Source of the DNA: Desulfuromonadales bacterium
GTDB lineage: Bacteria > Desulfobacterota > Desulfuromonadia > Desulfuromonadales > BM103
DNA length: 64,000 nt
NCBI GenBank assembly: GCA_027065695.1
Contig: JAMONP010000087.1
Coordinates: forward strand, 1 to 64,000
Reading direction: 5' to 3'
The notes under the pieces were generated by a model. That model was not told where the DNA came from. It made no database searches and saw only the letters and a list, made by a program, of their open reading frames with translations. The position numbers and the translations under genes were made by a program. This document shows, in pieces, positions 1 through 27,664 of the stretch (position 1 is the first letter of the stretch; each line of letters opens with the position of its first letter).

Positions 1-20
1 GTGTTGAGCATCTTTCTCAT
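1..20 (-). CDS. cas1: Cas1 N-terminus (partial, truncated by window start)
   Basis: Reverse complement of 1-20 is ATGAGAAAGATGCTCAACAC (MRKMLN...), overlapping the cas4 stop by ATGA; resembles the MRKLLNT-type start of type I-C Cas1 and sits in the expected position after cas4. Confidence 0.6.
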
Positions 21-640
21 AGATCCTCTCCCAACATCCGGTTCATGTAGCGACTGACGGATCGAGATTTGCCACAGCTTTTCGGCAAACACAAGCTGAG
101 TAATGAACAAGCGTCACACTTTTTGTCGTACACGGCCTGAGGCGTCTTACCACCTATTATCATCTGATGGGTTTTGTCGATGATTTCCTTTGTCAAAGCT
201 CTGAGTTCGGCATCCAAGAAGATCTCTTTTCTGCGCCGTTGTTTACCATAGAACAATGCCCCGCTATCAATCTGCACATCCAGCATCTCTTCCAGGCAGA
301 GTGCCTGTGCGCAAAGCTGCACCTCGTCGCAGCGGTCTTTCTTGGGCTTGCCACGTTTGTATTCGACGGGATATATCAGACCATCAGCATGGAACTCCAC
401 GACATCGGCCTGTCCACTCAAGCCTAGTTGCCGCGAACAGATTGGCAGGGTGCGTACCACCCGGATACCCTTTTGTTGACTTGCTTGCCCACTGTCGGCT
501 CGTTCGTGCAACACCTTGCCTTCTGCCGTGTAGCGGTTTTCGGCCCATTGCTGCTCCAAGTGGACTAACGCACACCGCCTCGGGCAGTAAACAAAATGAG
601 TAAGTGCCGAAATTGGTATAAAATCAGATTCAGGAAACAT
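17..640 (-). CDS. cas4: CRISPR-associated exonuclease Cas4 (type I-C style)
   Basis: PISALTHFVYCPRRCALVHLEQ N-terminus, VEYKRGKPK nuclease motif, C-terminal Cys cluster CDACSLLSLCLPKSC. Confidence 0.95.
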   Translation of the reverse strand: MFPESDFIPISALTHFVYCPRRCALVHLEQQWAENRYTAEGKVLHERADSGQASQQKGIRVVRTLPICSRQLGLSGQADVVEFHADGLIYPVEYKRGKPKKDRCDEVQLCAQALCLEEMLDVQIDSGALFYGKQRRRKEIFLDAELRALTKEIIDKTHQMIIGGKTPQAVYDKKCDACSLLSLCLPKSCGKSRSVSRYMNRMLGEDL

Positions 641-664: not shown

Positions 665-2869
665 CTAAATAATTGTGCCTTTGAACTGCTCATTTTCCAA
701 AACAGGTAAAACACCAGCCATGTATCCTAAAAAATCATTGTAGGGATAAATCCATTCATAAATCCCATTTCTAATCTCCTGAATCCCAAGTTTTTCAAGT
801 TGATACCCCCAGATCTGTACCGATTTTTTTTGCAGTTCACGCCAATCTACATCTTCAAAGTTTTCAAGTTTTTTTATGATGTCTTCATCGATAACTGTCA
901 CTCTGGTATCCGAGTTAATAACACAAAAATCTTTTTCAACTAGCGGGAAACGATTATTGATTTCCTGCTTTTGTAAATCTTCACAAACATTACCAGTTAA
1001 CCTAATTTCTCGTTTTAATGCTGCGGTACATAATTCCGGTGTAATTTGGCAGCCCTTTTGACAATAATTGAGAAGGATGCTTGCCGCCTCTTTCAGCCCA
1101 GGGTGCTGTTTTAACAACCCAGTACTTGCAAGCCTGATAGACCAAACTTCAGCGTCTTCATTTCCACCATGCCTGTTAACCCTTCCCGCAAGTTGGAGCA
1201 ATGAAACCAAGGAACCAATTTCCCGAATGCCTGTCCGGAATGAAAGATCCACTCCAGCTTCAACGCATGATGTTGCAACAAGTGTCCAGCAAGTATCTGA
1301 ATGATCAGCTAATCTTTTTTTGATTCGATTCAGCGCAGCATCCCGATCCTGGGGTGTCAGTGCCGTAGACAGGTGTTCAATATTCTTTCTTCCAGATTTA
1401 TCTGCACATGCCTGAGCAACAACAGCAGCACTTTGAACTGTATTAAGGATGACAATGCGAGGCCCAGGTACCGTGTATAGCCATGCAATAAGTTCATCAA
1501 TATCTAAAAGATTCTCTTTGTAGCGATACGTAATGCGAGCAGTTTCAAAGGCCATCAATTTTTTTCGGAAATTATCATTTATAACCTCAGGAACATCAGG
1601 GCAATCTTTATCAATTTCAGGTATTTTCCAGAAACGATTTAATGATCCTGAGGCAAGGACCCAATAACACTGCCATTCGTCAGCAAAAACTTTCATCCAA
1701 TGCCACGCCAACGGGAGCAGTTTCGCTGGCAGGGCAGCGTGAGACTCATCAACAAAAATGGCACTTCCTGGGAGATTGTGTAATCTGCGAAGAGTGGACG
1801 GAGTATTAGATGCGAGGGTTTCAAAAAAAGCTACCGCAGTTGTTACGACTATTGGAGCTTTCCATAATGCGGTCAGATGCCGACTACTGATATCTTGAAA
1901 ATCGGCTCGATGATGGAGCTCTGCAACAACTTCTTCTGCATTTTCTCCTGGTAGAATAAGGGCTTTACGATAGGTCTCCACCGATTGCGAAATTATATTG
2001 GTGAAGGGCAAAACCACAATGATCCGTCGCAACCCCCGGTTCTTGGCTTGCGAGAGTAAGTGTGCCATTACGGCGGTTGTCTTTCCTGTTCCCACAGGGC
2101 TATCACAAGAGGATATTCCTGCGTGAATATTTGAGGTCTTGCAAATCTCATACATCTGAGATCGCAGACATGATCTTTCATCTTCATCATTTCTAAGCTT
2201 GCTGACATAATCATCGAGAGCTAATAATCGTTCTGCAGGGTTCAATTTTACGGCTTTTTTGTCCTTCGGATAATTTCCGTAATTTATCGCCGTATCGGTA
2301 TGGTCTCCATCCACAAGACAGGAAAGTGCGAGTCTGAAAAATACCGCACTGTTCCCTTTTAACCCCTCAACTAAACCTTTACCTGGTGGCAACCCCTTAA
2401 CCGTTTCAATATGTTTGGTCAATAATTCTGGAAGCGTTGCATCAACATGATCCAGAACAGATTCATCCTGATTCAAAACAGACTCATCCCTGAACTGGTG
2501 CTTTTCTGCACGGGTACTCTCCACTATAAAATCTGACAAACCGATATGATGTGCCCGAACCAAAGCCGCACTCAATGGCATCGTCTTTTTAAGGAGATGT
2601 GCTGTGCCAGCGTCGGTGTGCTGAACAGGGAGAGTTTTCGCTTTTTGCTCGCCAGAAAGAACGCGTTGGTTCTCTTTATCCAGCTTGCCTAGATCATGAT
2701 ATTCCGCAGCAGAATGAACGACCCACCTAAAAAATAATCTATCCAATTTCGAGAAAGATGCTGCCTCAATTGAGGCAGCATCTGCACCTTGCACAACACC
2801 ATGAACATGACCAGCGTAGCTTTGAGCTGGTACATCCTTTTTCTTGTCAGCACTGTGCGCAAATAACAT
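665..2869 (-). CDS. cas3: CRISPR-associated helicase/nuclease Cas3 with N-terminal HD domain
   Basis: HD motif HSAAEYHDLGKLDKENQ, Walker A SPVGTGKTT, DExH box IFVDESHA, motif VI QLAGRVNRHG. Confidence 0.93.
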   Translation of the reverse strand: MLFAHSADKKKDVPAQSYAGHVHGVVQGADAASIEAASFSKLDRLFFRWVVHSAAEYHDLGKLDKENQRVLSGEQKAKTLPVQHTDAGTAHLLKKTMPLSAALVRAHHIGLSDFIVESTRAEKHQFRDESVLNQDESVLDHVDATLPELLTKHIETVKGLPPGKGLVEGLKGNSAVFFRLALSCLVDGDHTDTAINYGNYPKDKKAVKLNPAERLLALDDYVSKLRNDEDERSCLRSQMYEICKTSNIHAGISSCDSPVGTGKTTAVMAHLLSQAKNRGLRRIIVVLPFTNIISQSVETYRKALILPGENAEEVVAELHHRADFQDISSRHLTALWKAPIVVTTAVAFFETLASNTPSTLRRLHNLPGSAIFVDESHAALPAKLLPLAWHWMKVFADEWQCYWVLASGSLNRFWKIPEIDKDCPDVPEVINDNFRKKLMAFETARITYRYKENLLDIDELIAWLYTVPGPRIVILNTVQSAAVVAQACADKSGRKNIEHLSTALTPQDRDAALNRIKKRLADHSDTCWTLVATSCVEAGVDLSFRTGIREIGSLVSLLQLAGRVNRHGGNEDAEVWSIRLASTGLLKQHPGLKEAASILLNYCQKGCQITPELCTAALKREIRLTGNVCEDLQKQEINNRFPLVEKDFCVINSDTRVTVIDEDIIKKLENFEDVDWRELQKKSVQIWGYQLEKLGIQEIRNGIYEWIYPYNDFLGYMAGVLPVLENEQFKGTII

Positions 2870-3762
2870 CAGATATTATCCATAAGGTCTACACAGCTAT
2901 CCAAGCGATCAAGAAGATCCTGTGGTAAGCGTGCCGATTTATCCTCATAGTCATTCCACGATGTTGACGACGCCAACGGATCATCACCTGTTCTTTTTGG
3001 AGTCAAGGCATCGATCAGCAAATAATCGGGGCAACTGCCAAGTGCATTTTTGTGTTCCATGAACCACGCATGACGAATTCGCACATCAGGTCTGATTGCC
3101 GACCGCGTATGGTCGTATGCATATGGGATAAGTGCCTTAAGCAGGTCCACATCTTGTGTTGTACAACCAGACTTGTGCGCGCTGCTTGGGTTGATATAAA
3201 ACGGCATGCAGTATACGCCATGCTCTACAACCCGATATGCGAGGGGGGCCATCCCCTGACTCTTGCCTTCTTGTACTCCCGATTTATTAGTGTTGGTATG
3301 ACGTACTATTTGAACTGGAGCAAGTGATAACCCCATCGTAAATTGGGCAACCCCGGTTTTGATATAGCCCTTATTCCCACCGGACTCGAGAAAGGTATTT
3401 CCGAAAAGTCGTGCATCCCAATATTTTTTTACGAATGTACTGTTCAAAAATGTGTTCTGATCAAAACCACTTATATCATCAGACATCTCTGAAGAAATCT
3501 GACCACGGTCGCGCCCACGAGATTCCAAAATGCAGAAATGTTCTTTGTCGATACTGAGTTTTCCACTCAATGCGGAGAAAACTGGTCCATCATAATCTTC
3601 GACCAAGTCCCTTAGTTTCCGTTTAAACGAAACGGGAGAGATTTCTCCCAAACCATTTGGTCTCTGCCGGGGGTCGCTTTCTCTGTCGGGATCACCATTC
3701 GGATTGGAACTGACAACCTCAAGAATTAACAAACCCGTCGCGCGCTTAATTTTGTTGCTCAT
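2869..3762 (-). CDS. cas7: Cas7 (Csd2-like) backbone subunit
   Basis: LLILEVVSSNPNGDPDRESDPRQRPNG motif typical of Cas7; start placed at MSNKIKRATG (3762), downstream of the track start; stop overlaps the cas3 ATG (TGATG). Confidence 0.9.
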   Translation of the reverse strand: MSNKIKRATGLLILEVVSSNPNGDPDRESDPRQRPNGLGEISPVSFKRKLRDLVEDYDGPVFSALSGKLSIDKEHFCILESRGRDRGQISSEMSDDISGFDQNTFLNSTFVKKYWDARLFGNTFLESGGNKGYIKTGVAQFTMGLSLAPVQIVRHTNTNKSGVQEGKSQGMAPLAYRVVEHGVYCMPFYINPSSAHKSGCTTQDVDLLKALIPYAYDHTRSAIRPDVRIRHAWFMEHKNALGSCPDYLLIDALTPKRTGDDPLASSTSWNDYEDKSARLPQDLLDRLDSCVDLMDNI

Positions 3763-3787
3763 ACTCAATTCCCCTTTTTTGAATTTA

Positions 3788-4144
3788 TTATTTTTTATTA
3801 GAAGCAAGATAACCGAGCAGTAACTGTGCTCGCTCCGCATCGTTAAATCTATTCGGCAAAGACATTTCAGCAAGCTGAGCAGCCACCTCTCCATACTGTC
3901 CAATAAAATACCCAGCTAATTTGCCATTTTCCTTTCCCCTGAATGTTTGTGCCCAGCCGTAGTATGGTTTTAATCTCAAAGCCAACTGTGAAAGCGCCTG
4001 AATAGGGTTATCTAATGCTGCCGACATCAGTGCATTACCAACCAATTGAGGAGGCAACTCATCACGAACCTCCTTACAATAAAGAGCGTGAAGCTCATCA
4101 GCCAGTTTCATCATGCGCCCAACAAGAAATGGAACTTTTCCCAT
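3788..4144 (-). CDS. cas11c: Predicted internal small subunit Cas11c (118 aa) translated from inside cas8c
   Basis: ATG at 4144 in frame with cas8c (codon 578) preceded on the minus strand by ACGGAGGTTTATATG, a strong Shine-Dalgarno; type I-C systems are known to make Cas11c this way. Confidence 0.7.
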   Translation of the reverse strand: MGKVPFLVGRMMKLADELHALYCKEVRDELPPQLVGNALMSAALDNPIQALSQLALRLKPYYGWAQTFRGKENGKLAGYFIGQYGEVAAQLAEMSLPNRFNDAERAQLLLGYLASNKK

Positions 4145-5875
4145 ATAAACCTCCGTTTTTATTCCAAGTTTATAAAGCAGTAACCCTAAAATTGACGGTA
4201 ATAAAAGCTTATGCTTATCGTATCCCTTAGCTTTAATAGCAATAATTTCGTTACGGTTAATTGAGGCACCCAACGATAAAAATAGCCCCTTGCTATTTCG
4301 GATAAGGACGGTGAAAAGTTGGGAGATAAATCGTTCTGCCTGCTCATCAAGTAGCAGTTCGATTCCTTTGGTGTAAGCAACAACTGGTGTTTCACACTCG
4401 GTCGATCCATCTAGCTTCCAAACACGGTTAAAACACGATGCTATCTGGAGTGGATATGGCACTTGTGGTTCTGCAACACTCCACTCCCCTTTTTTGTCTC
4501 CCCAAACACGGAACTTTATATTCGGTAAATTTGCACAACCATCCGCCCACTCACTGGCGGCATCGGCAAGCCGCTGTGCCGTATAGTTGCGATGAAAAAC
4601 AACTTTGGTGCGTGCTTTATCCATTTTTTTCAGAGAAAAGACGCGTAACTCGATTCCCTTAAGATCCTGCGTTATATTTTCCCGAAGTTTTTCAATCACG
4701 CTATGTGCGGCATTCGTAAAGCGATATCCAGAATCAAAATTCTCTTGCGCACCTAAACACGCAGCCAGGTTGAGAGAAATTCCAGGTAACTGTGCAGGGT
4801 ATGCAAAAATAAGTTCTTTGGTATCTGCCCGTCCCCAAGTATCACCTTCATGGGAAGAATCACCCAACCATTCAAGAGCTCCCTTTGCACGCTTCCTGCT
4901 CTCACTGCCAATCGGAAAAGATTTTGAGTCAATGGTTTTATAACGTTGTTGACAAGGTGATTCACTATTCATTGCACGTAACTTCACTTCAGCAACATAA
5001 GGAAGTTTCACCCCTGGCAACTTTTCATTACTGCCATCTACAGTGGAATTGAACGCGTCAAAAACAACTTCCGAGGTGATTGTCTTTTCCTTCTTTACGA
5101 TTAATTGTTCATTAATCATTTCGATGGTACTTTGACTGGCAACAGGATATTCATCCCAATCTGGAATATCCAAAAAAACTGATAGAGTACCCCTGTCTTT
5201 ATCTGGCGTTTGCTTTATGCTTCCATCATGTAATAGAAAAGACAGTGCTAAAGTAGCATTTTCGGAACTCTCAATTAGCTCCCACAAATAGTTTTCCAGT
5301 ACTCGCCTAAATGATTTTCCATAAACACAATTCAGTAATGAACTGTCTTTGTCTAAAACTGGATAACGTAAAACCCGTTCAATCAATTTATCGACCACAT
5401 GACAGCTTTCACGATTGTGACCAGCTATGAGTCGAGAGAGCTTTTCAGGTACTTCACCGAGGCATCGACTTAATTTTTTCTTAATTTTTTCATCCCAATT
5501 ATCATTCCGTTCAGCACACCAACTTTTGAGAAGATCAACGTCAATACTTTGTTTGCCATCACGCCAAGCTTTCAACCGTTTTTTTGCAGTTTTCTGTTCT
5601 TCGATACTTTCATCAAAAGCAATTCGATATAACGGTTGAATATTGAGCCCAGGAAACGAGCTGCCATTGCTTGGCTCCCATTTTTTTAAAAAGGGGACAA
5701 TCTCATGGTTAATTGCATCAATTCCTTCTACACTGCCATCATCTGCAATAAAAATGCGATAACAGGGCTTTTTTGTTGTAGCTTTAGGCAGCTCTTTCAA
5801 CTTTGGATCCCACTCTTTTGGAGCGATACCAGCAGTGTCCAGCGCATCAGCTAATTGACATAATTCATTCAGCAT
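3788..5875 (-). CDS. cas8c: Cas8c (Csd1-like) large subunit, 695 aa
   Basis: Position between cas5 and cas7, Csd1-like N-terminus and C-terminal YMGKVPFLVGRMMKLADELHA region. Confidence 0.85.
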   Translation of the reverse strand: MLNELCQLADALDTAGIAPKEWDPKLKELPKATTKKPCYRIFIADDGSVEGIDAINHEIVPFLKKWEPSNGSSFPGLNIQPLYRIAFDESIEEQKTAKKRLKAWRDGKQSIDVDLLKSWCAERNDNWDEKIKKKLSRCLGEVPEKLSRLIAGHNRESCHVVDKLIERVLRYPVLDKDSSLLNCVYGKSFRRVLENYLWELIESSENATLALSFLLHDGSIKQTPDKDRGTLSVFLDIPDWDEYPVASQSTIEMINEQLIVKKEKTITSEVVFDAFNSTVDGSNEKLPGVKLPYVAEVKLRAMNSESPCQQRYKTIDSKSFPIGSESRKRAKGALEWLGDSSHEGDTWGRADTKELIFAYPAQLPGISLNLAACLGAQENFDSGYRFTNAAHSVIEKLRENITQDLKGIELRVFSLKKMDKARTKVVFHRNYTAQRLADAASEWADGCANLPNIKFRVWGDKKGEWSVAEPQVPYPLQIASCFNRVWKLDGSTECETPVVAYTKGIELLLDEQAERFISQLFTVLIRNSKGLFLSLGASINRNEIIAIKAKGYDKHKLLLPSILGLLLYKLGIKTEVYMGKVPFLVGRMMKLADELHALYCKEVRDELPPQLVGNALMSAALDNPIQALSQLALRLKPYYGWAQTFRGKENGKLAGYFIGQYGEVAAQLAEMSLPNRFNDAERAQLLLGYLASNKK

Positions 5876-6540
5876 AAAGTCACCTGCTTTCGTAGAAACA
5901 TCAGGGTTCCATTTTGAATAGCCACGTTCTGATCAAAGGAAAAAGCTACGTCTGATGCGTACCCTTCGGGGAAAACCTCCCGAAGCATCGATGGGATAAC
6001 GGTATTGAGATTGATCTGAACGATTGTTGAATCACGAAACTCGCCAAAATACGCAGGTGCAAATTCCTTCCAGCCTAAAAAGGGAACAGAAAAACACTGC
6101 CCTCTCTTAAGTCTCCTTTCAAACATAGCCTGATATGCATGACCGGGTGCAGTGGTTTTTTGATCCCATCTTTTAGCAGACAGCGGCATATCTTTTTGAA
6201 TGCTTTTGGGGGCAGGTGAAACTTCTGCATACAGGCGATAACAGACATCAAGCAAAACTGTCGCAAGGAACTGAAAACCACCACCCGTTTTAACAACACC
6301 TGACTTTCGAAGTGGCCCACCATAGTTTGTCTGATAGTTGTGATATTGAAGCGGAGTACATATTTCAACTTTTGTTGGATTTATCTGTACTGCGGGCCCC
6401 CATAAAATAGATTCGAAAATCCCTTTTACGGCTGAATAGGTTGGTGCCGGATAGCTGACAGGACAATCCCCCGTGTCAGGACGTGTCCACATGGCAGTAG
6501 CTCCGGAAATTTCAATTTGTACGTTATAGCTCTTACCCAT
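5869..6540 (-). CDS. cas5: Cas5 (type I-C Cas5d-like)
   Basis: GATAMWTRPDTGDCPVSYPAPTYSAVKGIFESILW N-terminus; PFLGWKEFAPAYFGEFR motif. Confidence 0.92.
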   Translation of the reverse strand: MGKSYNVQIEISGATAMWTRPDTGDCPVSYPAPTYSAVKGIFESILWGPAVQINPTKVEICTPLQYHNYQTNYGGPLRKSGVVKTGGGFQFLATVLLDVCYRLYAEVSPAPKSIQKDMPLSAKRWDQKTTAPGHAYQAMFERRLKRGQCFSVPFLGWKEFAPAYFGEFRDSTIVQINLNTVIPSMLREVFPEGYASDVAFSFDQNVAIQNGTLMFLRKQVTLC

Positions 6541-7376
6541 TAATACCCCCTTTTCTCTAGTCGTTTCTGTTTCTCAGATATATCCAGAAAATTTCCCTCT
6601 GAAACAACCTTACGCCCCGATTCTTCTTCCAGTTTTTCACGCGCATTCCCAGCAATAGTCCCTCCCTTGTTCGAGGCAGTGTGATTCTCATCAAAACCCT
6701 GTGCATCCTGACTTCTCGCAATCTCGGTTGTGGCTGCCTCACCCAGCATCGAAAAGATCAACTCCAGATCAGTCATGTGATCTCGTAGATTCTCACGCTG
6801 CAAACCTTTCATTTGTTTGTATTCGGATGGAGTCACACCGAAAGCAGCTTTCGATATTTCAGCGGTGAGGATAGCGTACTCGCGATGACCACCAACATCA
6901 CGGTTTTTCCATTCGTCGGTCAATTCGGCACGGATAGCGATGCCACGCATCCGTTTTTCGATCCAGTCATCAGAATATCCTTTGGCACGATAGAGTTCAC
7001 GGGTACGCCGGGTTGCCAGTTCTGGGTCCTCGATCTCCTGCACCCGCTCGTAACCGACCTTGGCCAGCCAACGCTTGAATGGTTCGGCTTTGGGGGAAGG
7101 AATCGACTGGATGATGCGAAAGATACCTTCGGTGTTTGCGCAATCGGTCAGATACTTTTTGCCATCGCTTGATTCTAGTTTCAGTTGTCGACAAAATGTC
7201 GACAACTCAGTTCCACTGGCATCTTTCTCCCGTTTTTTCATGCGATACCAGTAGTCACGGGGTTTGCCGCTGTCTGTCAGTGCCGCAATGACATCAACAA
7301 CGGCAAAAAACCAAACATCTTCAATGAGAATGCGTCTGATCTCCTTGTCCTGGAAAACCACCAATTTTTCATCCAT
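6540..7376 (-). CDS. BRO-N domain protein with DinD-like C-terminal region
   Basis: N-terminal BRO-N-like sequence (KEIRRILIEDVWFFAVVDVIAALTDSGKPRDYW), then ELSTFCRQLKLESSDGKKYLTDCANTEGIFRIIQSIPSPKAEPFKRWLAKVGYER; C-terminal HMTDLELIFSMLGEAATTEIA. Stop overlaps cas5 ATG as TAATG. Confidence 0.85.
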   Translation of the reverse strand: MDEKLVVFQDKEIRRILIEDVWFFAVVDVIAALTDSGKPRDYWYRMKKREKDASGTELSTFCRQLKLESSDGKKYLTDCANTEGIFRIIQSIPSPKAEPFKRWLAKVGYERVQEIEDPELATRRTRELYRAKGYSDDWIEKRMRGIAIRAELTDEWKNRDVGGHREYAILTAEISKAAFGVTPSEYKQMKGLQRENLRDHMTDLELIFSMLGEAATTEIARSQDAQGFDENHTASNKGGTIAGNAREKLEEESGRKVVSEGNFLDISEKQKRLEKRGY

Positions 7377-25637: not shown

Positions 25638-27664
25638 ACGCAACACTGACGACCTGCCCCTACTGCGGCACAGGTTGTAATTTCTACCTGATTGGCGACG
25701 AAAACGACCGTTTAATCGGCATTGAACCAGCAGGAAAAGACCCGACCAGTCGAGGGCAACTCTGTATCAAAGGCTGGGATGCCCACGCTTTTGTCCATCA
25801 CCATGATCGCCTGAAAACACCGTTGCTACGATGCGACGGTGAGCTACAACCCTGTAGCTGGGATACTGCACTGCAGGTTATCGATCAGAGACTGCATAAA
25901 GTTTCCGCACAGTATGGTCCAGATAGCTTGATGTTTCTCTCTTCAGCCAAGGTCAGCAACGAAGAAAACTACCTGTTGATGAAACTGGCCCGAGCCGGTT
26001 ACGGCACTAACAATATTGACCACTGCGCCCGACTCTGCCATTCCTCAACTGTGACCGGTCTGATGGAAACTCTCGGCTCCGGTGCAATGACCAACAGTTT
26101 GAACTGTTTCGAGGACACTGATCTGGTGTTCGTCATCGGTTCGAATACGACCGAACAGCATCCTCTGATCGGCAGCCGGATTCTGCAGGCGCAACAGCGT
26201 GGTACAAAATTGATCGTAGCAGACAGTCGCAGAATCCGCCTCGCAGGCCAGGCTGATCTGCACCTGCGCCATCAGAATGGCAGCGATGTCGCCCTGCTCA
26301 ACGGCATGATGCGACAAATTTTGCAAGACGGCCTGGAGGATCGCGCATTTATTGAGCAGAGGACAGAAAATTTTAGCGCTTTTCGCGAGTCTCTCGATTC
26401 CTTTACTCCGGAATTTGCAGCGAGAATCAGTGGTCTGTCTCCGAAGCAGATTATTGCTGCTGCTCGAACCTATGCACAGGCGGAGAATGCGATGATCGTT
26501 TTCGCTATGGGGATCACTCAGCACAGTCATGGCGTTGACAATGTCCGTGCGGTTTCCAACCTGGCATTACTTACCGGCAACCTTGGTCGACCCGGCACCG
26601 GGATCAATCCTCTGCGTGGGCAGAACAATGTCCAGGGCGCTTGTGACATGGGTGCCTTGCCAGATGTCTATACCGGCTATCAACGAGTTTCCGACCCCGT
26701 GGCCAAACAGAAGTTTGCCGCAGCCTGGCAGAAACCACTCTCCGATTCTCCGGGCCTGATGGCGACCCACGCCATCAAGGCAGCTGCAAAGGGGGAAATT
26801 CGCGGTATGCTGATCCTGGGTGAGAATCCCATGCTTTCAGATGCAAATCAGAAACTGGTGCGCAAGGGACTGGAGAGTCTCGATTTTCTTGCCGTAATCG
26901 ATATCTTCCCGACAGAAACTGCGCAACTGGCCGATCTGGTTCTGCCGGCGGCTTGCTACGCTGAACGAGACGGCACCTTCACATCAACGGAACGTCGGGT
27001 ACAGCGTGGCCGCAAGGCGGTTGAACCACCCGGAGAGGCCCGGGCCGACTGGCAGATTCTTTGTGAACTTCTACAGCGTCGCGGGATTCCAGCCGATTAT
27101 GCCGACCCCGCCGAAATCATGGCAGAGATCGCTGACCTTACACCAAGTTACGCAGGGATCAGCTATCCGAGACTGGAGGGAAATGGCCTGCAATGGCCCT
27201 GTCCATCCATGGAACATCCCGGCACCCCGATTCTCCATGAAGAGCAATGCACTCGTGGCAAAGGACACTTCAGCCCAACCATTTACCGGCCGCCACAAGA
27301 GTTACCGGATGCCGAGTTTCCTTTTCTGCTTAACACCGGACGAACCGGAATTCACTGGCACACCGGTAGCATGACCCGACGCAGCCATCTGTTAGACAGG
27401 GAAGAACGAAATGCTTTTCTCGAAATCAACCCTGAGGATGCCGGCAAGCTCAACATTCGAGAACGACAACAGGTGCGTATCAGCAGTAGACGCGGTACGA
27501 TCGAGGCTGGAGCGATGTTGACAGAAAGAGTCCCGCCAGGGCAGATTTTCATCCCCTTTCATTTTGCTGAAGGAGCAGCCAATATCCTGACCAACAACGC
27601 CCTTGACCCGGAATCGGGGATTCCGGAATTCAAGGTCTGTGCTGTAAAGGTAGAAACATGCTGA
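25634..27664 (+). CDS. fdhA: Formate dehydrogenase-type molybdopterin oxidoreductase, Cys form
   Basis: N-terminal CPYCGTGCNF 4Fe-4S motif; NIDHCARLCHSSTV with TGC Cys at the Sec/Cys position; GNLGRPGTGINPLRGQNNVQGACDMG. Confidence 0.9.
   Translation: MNATLTTCPYCGTGCNFYLIGDENDRLIGIEPAGKDPTSRGQLCIKGWDAHAFVHHHDRLKTPLLRCDGELQPCSWDTALQVIDQRLHKVSAQYGPDSLMFLSSAKVSNEENYLLMKLARAGYGTNNIDHCARLCHSSTVTGLMETLGSGAMTNSLNCFEDTDLVFVIGSNTTEQHPLIGSRILQAQQRGTKLIVADSRRIRLAGQADLHLRHQNGSDVALLNGMMRQILQDGLEDRAFIEQRTENFSAFRESLDSFTPEFAARISGLSPKQIIAAARTYAQAENAMIVFAMGITQHSHGVDNVRAVSNLALLTGNLGRPGTGINPLRGQNNVQGACDMGALPDVYTGYQRVSDPVAKQKFAAAWQKPLSDSPGLMATHAIKAAAKGEIRGMLILGENPMLSDANQKLVRKGLESLDFLAVIDIFPTETAQLADLVLPAACYAERDGTFTSTERRVQRGRKAVEPPGEARADWQILCELLQRRGIPADYADPAEIMAEIADLTPSYAGISYPRLEGNGLQWPCPSMEHPGTPILHEEQCTRGKGHFSPTIYRPPQELPDAEFPFLLNTGRTGIHWHTGSMTRRSHLLDREERNAFLEINPEDAGKLNIRERQQVRISSRRGTIEAGAMLTERVPPGQIFIPFHFAEGAANILTNNALDPESGIPEFKVCAVKVETC

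Follow-up and report, generated by a model that had tools for sequence, protein, structure and literature searches.

The window, which denotes the whole stretch of 64,000 nucleotides analysed here, starts at base 1 of contig C87 and opens with a cas operon on the minus strand. The operon contains the following genes:

17-640, minus strand: cas4 (TIGR00372, E=1.8e-41; PADLOC Cas4c, E=7.1e-88)
665-2869, minus strand: cas3, HD nuclease and helicase, placed after cas7 (PADLOC Cas3c, E=1.8e-96)
2869-3762, minus strand: cas7c, ATG at 3762 (PF05107, E=9.9e-52; TIGR02589 Csd2, E=8.7e-32, below the model cut-off)
3788-5875, minus strand: cas8c, large subunit of 695 aa, divergent branch (PADLOC PDLC01562 Cas8c, E=1.1e-171)
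5869-6540, minus strand: cas5c (PADLOC Cas5c, E=5.4e-26; TIGR01876, E=1.1e-18, below the model cut-off)

The contig ends just past cas4, so that cas1, cas2 and the array are out of view. The type I-C gene set is present, with profiles for Cas5c, Cas7c, Cas8c, Cas3c and Cas4c, and no cas6 is found among the operon genes. The sequence-only reading had called the large-subunit gene cas8c. This name stands by the PADLOC Cas8c profile, but it needs qualification, as the gene is missed by cas_Csd1 and Pfam, lies in a non-canonical gene order and belongs to a divergent branch. The Cas8 of the window has no Pfam or NCBIfam match, and the NCBIfam model cas_Csd1 (TIGR01863) finds nothing in the window or in its genome (G000). 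Because PDLC01562 alone recognises this Cas8, we placed it in a divergent I-C branch. The canonical order cas3-cas5-cas8c-cas7-cas4 is not the one found here. Instead, the order cas5-cas8-cas7-cas3-cas4 is common to the window and the homologous loci L003-L006, which come from other phyla as well as from the window's own. Canonical TIGR01863 loci of the window's phylum are arranged as cas3-cas5-(cas8)-cas7-cas4, and the Cas7 of the window is only ~22-41% identical to the Cas7 of these loci. The gene order, the missed Cas8 profiles and the divergence of Cas7 therefore set the window apart as a distinct type I-C branch. The branch is sporadic in the phylum, occurring in 14 of 396 genomes, compared with 35 of 198 for canonical cas8c.

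Type I-C CRISPR repeats end in GTGGATTGAAAC. The homologous locus L003 carries the repeat GTCGCGCCCCACGCGGGCGCGTGGATTGAAAC, which we take to be I-C-like; the window contig itself ends at cas4. Elsewhere in the same genome, a separate cas1 is followed by two cas2-like ORFs (L073, G000:C29:39589-40377), without a close I-C assignment, and the adaptation genes of the window system lie past the contig end or elsewhere. Relatives of the branch were also seen in MAGs labelled Acidobacteria, Omnitrophota, Aegiribacteria and Thermoplasmatota, which suggests horizontal transfer. No additional loci came from searching the phyla to which L003 and L004 belong, and a plasmid search for homologues found none. 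The phage collection held one unannotated record with a homologous operon (L022, MT837094.1, positions 1300-7020), described as "Bacteriophage sp." from human faeces and carrying cas5-cas8-cas7-cas3 of this branch. The system may be borne by a phage, or the record may be a mislabelled bacterial contig.

Directly upstream of cas5, at 6540-7376 on the minus strand, is a Bro-N domain gene (PADLOC candidate PDC-S13) whose stop overlaps the cas5 ATG by one base. A paralogue in the same genome (L074, G000:C61:82681-83505, 75% identical) lies right ahead of a cas1-cas2 pair that adjoins repeats, and several Bro-N homologues of the phylum lie within ~6 kb of cas8c on the same contig and strand (G279, G201, G154, G196, G074 and G155). 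Among 58 ORFs neighbouring 29 Bro-N loci, Cas1 was found in 5, and Cas2, Cas4, Cas5, Cas6e and Cas7 in 2 each; DNA methylases and restriction genes are also among the neighbours. Relatives in the phylum are found at varying positions, some next to or within cas operons of types I-C and I-E and some next to restriction-modification genes. The Bro-N gene is a possible accessory of CRISPR operons. Our literature search returned no description of it, and the cas-linked Bro-N gene may be more novel than the hidden Cas11 start described below.

An internal Shine-Dalgarno sequence and ATG in cas8c

Within cas8c, the following features were located:

3788-4144, minus strand: predicted cas11c coding sequence of 118 aa and a stop codon, lying within the 3' end of cas8c (profile homology, AF2 model, PDB fold matches)
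4068-4076, minus strand: second SD-like word TAAGGAGGT, encoding a K-E-V peptide, with free codon variation in homologues; used as an internal control
4142-4144, minus strand: internal in-frame ATG, codon 578 of cas8c, predicted Cas11c start (sequence; homologue conservation)
4150-4154, minus strand: internal Shine-Dalgarno (SD) sequence GGAGG, extended CGGAGGT (sequence; anti-SD duplex; homologue conservation)

The spacer between GGAGG and ATG is 5 nt, in the minus-strand context aaaacGGAGGtttatATGggaaaagtt (also ataaaaacGGAGGtttatATGggaaaagttcca). As (5875-4144)/3 = 577, the ATG at 4144 is codon 578 of the 695-aa frame 3788-5875, and the nested frame ends at the TAA at 3790-3788. The sequence-only reading had proposed exactly this pair, GGAGG at 4154-4150 and ATG at 4144-4142, as the in-frame start of a 118-aa C-terminal product; the minus-strand sequence confirms all of the coordinates, and coordinate arithmetic and the ORF list confirm the frame. 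It had also taken the listing of full-length cas8c only as a sign of a gene missed by ORF callers. The list does contain only the full-length gene, but this is in itself no evidence for a missed gene, because the ORF tool reports the first start only.

The anti-SD duplex at the internal site is calculated at -10.2 kcal/mol, compared with -6.0 kcal/mol at cas8c's own start. This difference would favour the expected excess of Cas11c in the window, but it is not general among the homologues, some of which have a stronger SD at the main start than at the internal site. The window has 47 ORFs of 150 aa or more, with 311 in-frame ATGs inside them; 2 of these ATGs reach -10.2 kcal/mol. When cas8c is shuffled synonymously, an equally good site is present at some internal ATG in 12% of the shuffles. 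The SD-ATG pair of the window taken alone is therefore only suggestive. We note, as a separate observation, a possible nested start at window position 26807 on the plus strand: another internal in-frame ATG with a strong SD (AAAGGGGGAAA, -10.7 kcal/mol), located 285 codons from the end of its 676-aa ORF.

Conservation of the predicted internal start among cas8 homologues

To the window we added 17 cas8 homologues, giving a set of 18 genes with 24-73% identity to the window Cas8 over the full alignment. In the codon alignment, an ATG is found at the M578 position in 18/18 genes. A strong SD (AAGGAG, GGAGG or AAAGGAG) stands 5-7 nt upstream of it in 17/18, down to 24% identity; the exception is L022, with the weak SD AAGGAT (-5.4 kcal/mol). 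In each of the 18 genes this site ranks first by SD among the internal in-frame ATGs. Loss of the SD-ATG pair in close homologues had been named by the sequence-only reading as the result that would speak against it, and the pair is not lost. With this conservation, the site goes far beyond chance.

The same pattern could arise as a by-product of a K-E-x-(Y/F)-M peptide needed by Cas8c, and the motif K/T-E-x-Y/F-M is indeed conserved at the protein level; the 12% of shuffles that yield some equally strong site also leave room for coincidence. The codons, however, argue that this explanation is highly improbable. Lys-Glu at the site is written AAGGAG in 15/15 cases, compared with 12/108 Lys-Glu pairs elsewhere in the same genes (Fisher p = 2.5e-12, a value that is only indicative because the homologues are related). 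In L015, AAAGGAG is kept in a different codon phase and encodes Lys-Gly instead of Lys-Glu, so that what is conserved is the nucleotide word and not the peptide. In a codon-by-codon scan, the excess of synonymous identity peaks for the whole gene at codons 572-578, and the four-codon windows ranked 1-4 of 645 start at codons 572-575. By comparison, the K-E-V at 601-603, 24 codons further on (TAAGGAGGT in the window), shows no such fixation, its codons varying freely in the homologues. With these codon tests, selection acting on the nucleotide word is told apart from selection acting on the protein. The K-E-V word was also considered as another start and judged not functional, as the following ATG (4062-4060) is out of frame and the codons lack conservation.

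Selection on the nucleotide word could also mean that elongating ribosomes pause on the SD-like sequence where the Cas8 body meets the C-terminal domain, which would aid co-translational folding with no separate protein made. The word lies exactly at this domain boundary and its codons are conserved, as pausing would predict. An invariant ATG at a start-like spacing of 5-7 nt would, however, be needless for pausing, yet it is present in 18/18 genes; moreover, the canonical lineage has the same layout and a solved free Cas11c with an equivalent start (PMC7684278). We consider pausing very unlikely. A third explanation, that the small subunit comes from a separate gene elsewhere or from proteolysis of Cas8c and that the internal start is vestigial, is less credible still, and we found nothing in its favour. 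In the window there is no room for a separate small-subunit gene between cas8c and cas7, and no cas11 gene is found in the operons of the window or L003-L006, in which only short intervals separate cas8, cas7 and cas3. A vestigial SD would also not stay conserved down to 24% identity. These comparisons leave an active internal start as the preferred reading.

Relation of the predicted 118-residue product to known Cas11c proteins

In Desulfovibrio vulgaris type I-C, the C-terminal part of cas8c yields Cas11c, which corresponds to residues 489-612 of Cas8c, lines the belly of Cascade and stabilises the R-loop (O'Brien et al. 2020, PMC7684278). This paper credits the internal ribosome-binding site to McBride et al. 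2020. A Cas11 component hidden in cas8 and translated from inside it is also known in Neisseria type I-C (Tan et al. 2022, cited in PMC11640852), where it is required for Cascade assembly. These reports bear out the statement in the sequence-only reading that type I-C Cascade uses a Cas11c from internal cas8c translation. Nested in-frame translation of the large-subunit gene is common to Cas11b of Haloferax, although that system is type I-B with cas8b as its large subunit (PMC11899642, whose cited works give further experimental precedent for internal Cas11 translation).

Comparison with experimentally defined Cas11c proteins had been proposed as a check, and it was run on profiles. Canonical Cas8c genes of the window's phylum mostly have their strongest late in-frame SD-start at a distance of 117-140 codons from the end. 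The profile of these canonical products matches the solved Cas11c chains 7kha_K, 8g9s_H and 9jhb_B, D. vulgaris Cas11c among them, from residue 1-3 on, and matches full-length D. vulgaris Cas8c at residue 490, which fits the published range given above. The window-type Cas11c profile in turn aligns with the canonical Cas11c profile with a probability of 97 and E=8e-11, N-termini aligned (hhalign). PDB sequence searches with Cas11c (phmmer), with full Cas8c and with the alignment (hmmsearch) gave chance matches only and no relative.

The AF2 model of the 118-aa domain, built from an alignment of 16 sequences with the phage-record row left out, is a helical bundle (pLDDT 89.4, pTM 0.83). The best 8 Foldseek matches in the PDB are all type I-C Cas11c or Cas8c C-termini, with TM-scores up to 0.71, and all remaining matches have TM-scores of at most 0.35. 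As the lowest Foldseek E-value is only 3.5e-3, the fold match rests on the specificity of the hits and the TM-score, not on the E-value. The predicted product is thus homologous to known Cas11c in sequence profile and predicted fold, with a start at the equivalent place, and its coding sequence, which has an SD and a start of its own, occupies the 3' end of cas8c in the same frame. Like D. vulgaris Cas11c, it would arise by internal in-frame initiation behind an SD from the cas8c C-terminus, and it has about 120 aa, a predicted helical bundle and a profile-aligned start. Unlike the D. vulgaris case, it is only ~15% identical over the aligned domain, a plain sequence search misses the likeness, and cas3 stands after cas7 rather than at the front of the operon.

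A proposed second translation product of cas8c

We consider it about 94% probable, from sequence conservation and modelling, that cas8c is translated from two starts, yielding Cas8c and a separate Cas11c. Ribosomes starting at 5875 would make the 695-aa large subunit, while the internal SD at 4154-4150 would recruit ribosomes to start at the ATG at 4144. The second product would be a 118-aa helical-bundle small subunit with the same sequence as the Cas8c C-terminus. If the D. vulgaris complex is a guide, approximately two Cas11c copies would lie along the Cas7 backbone, next to the C-terminal domain of Cas8c, and would hold the strand of non-target DNA as the R-loop opens. Initiation itself, stoichiometry and the role in Cascade are what we infer. 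The earlier statement that the locus makes a separate small subunit is thus supported by the conservation of the SD-ATG pair, the profile homology and the predicted fold.

The internal-start mechanism is already known and is unchanged by this finding; what is added is its conservation in a divergent, rearranged branch. Gene callers and the family libraries we used miss the predicted Cas11c of this branch, and expression or engineering of the branch with a recoded cas8c must therefore supply it separately. If the reading is true, the internal SD of the window, being stronger than that of cas8c, could set an excess of Cas11c over Cas8c. We favour, with some reservation, the view that a deep, rearranged I-C branch, with a Cas11c ~15% identical to the solved ones, has the same nested-start arrangement as the canonical branch. 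Because the locus lies in a separate type I-C branch, the hidden start would span both, and the comparisons show selection on a predicted nested start in two type I-C branches that are deeply separated. If so, the hidden small subunit would predate the split of the two branches or would have been kept through it.
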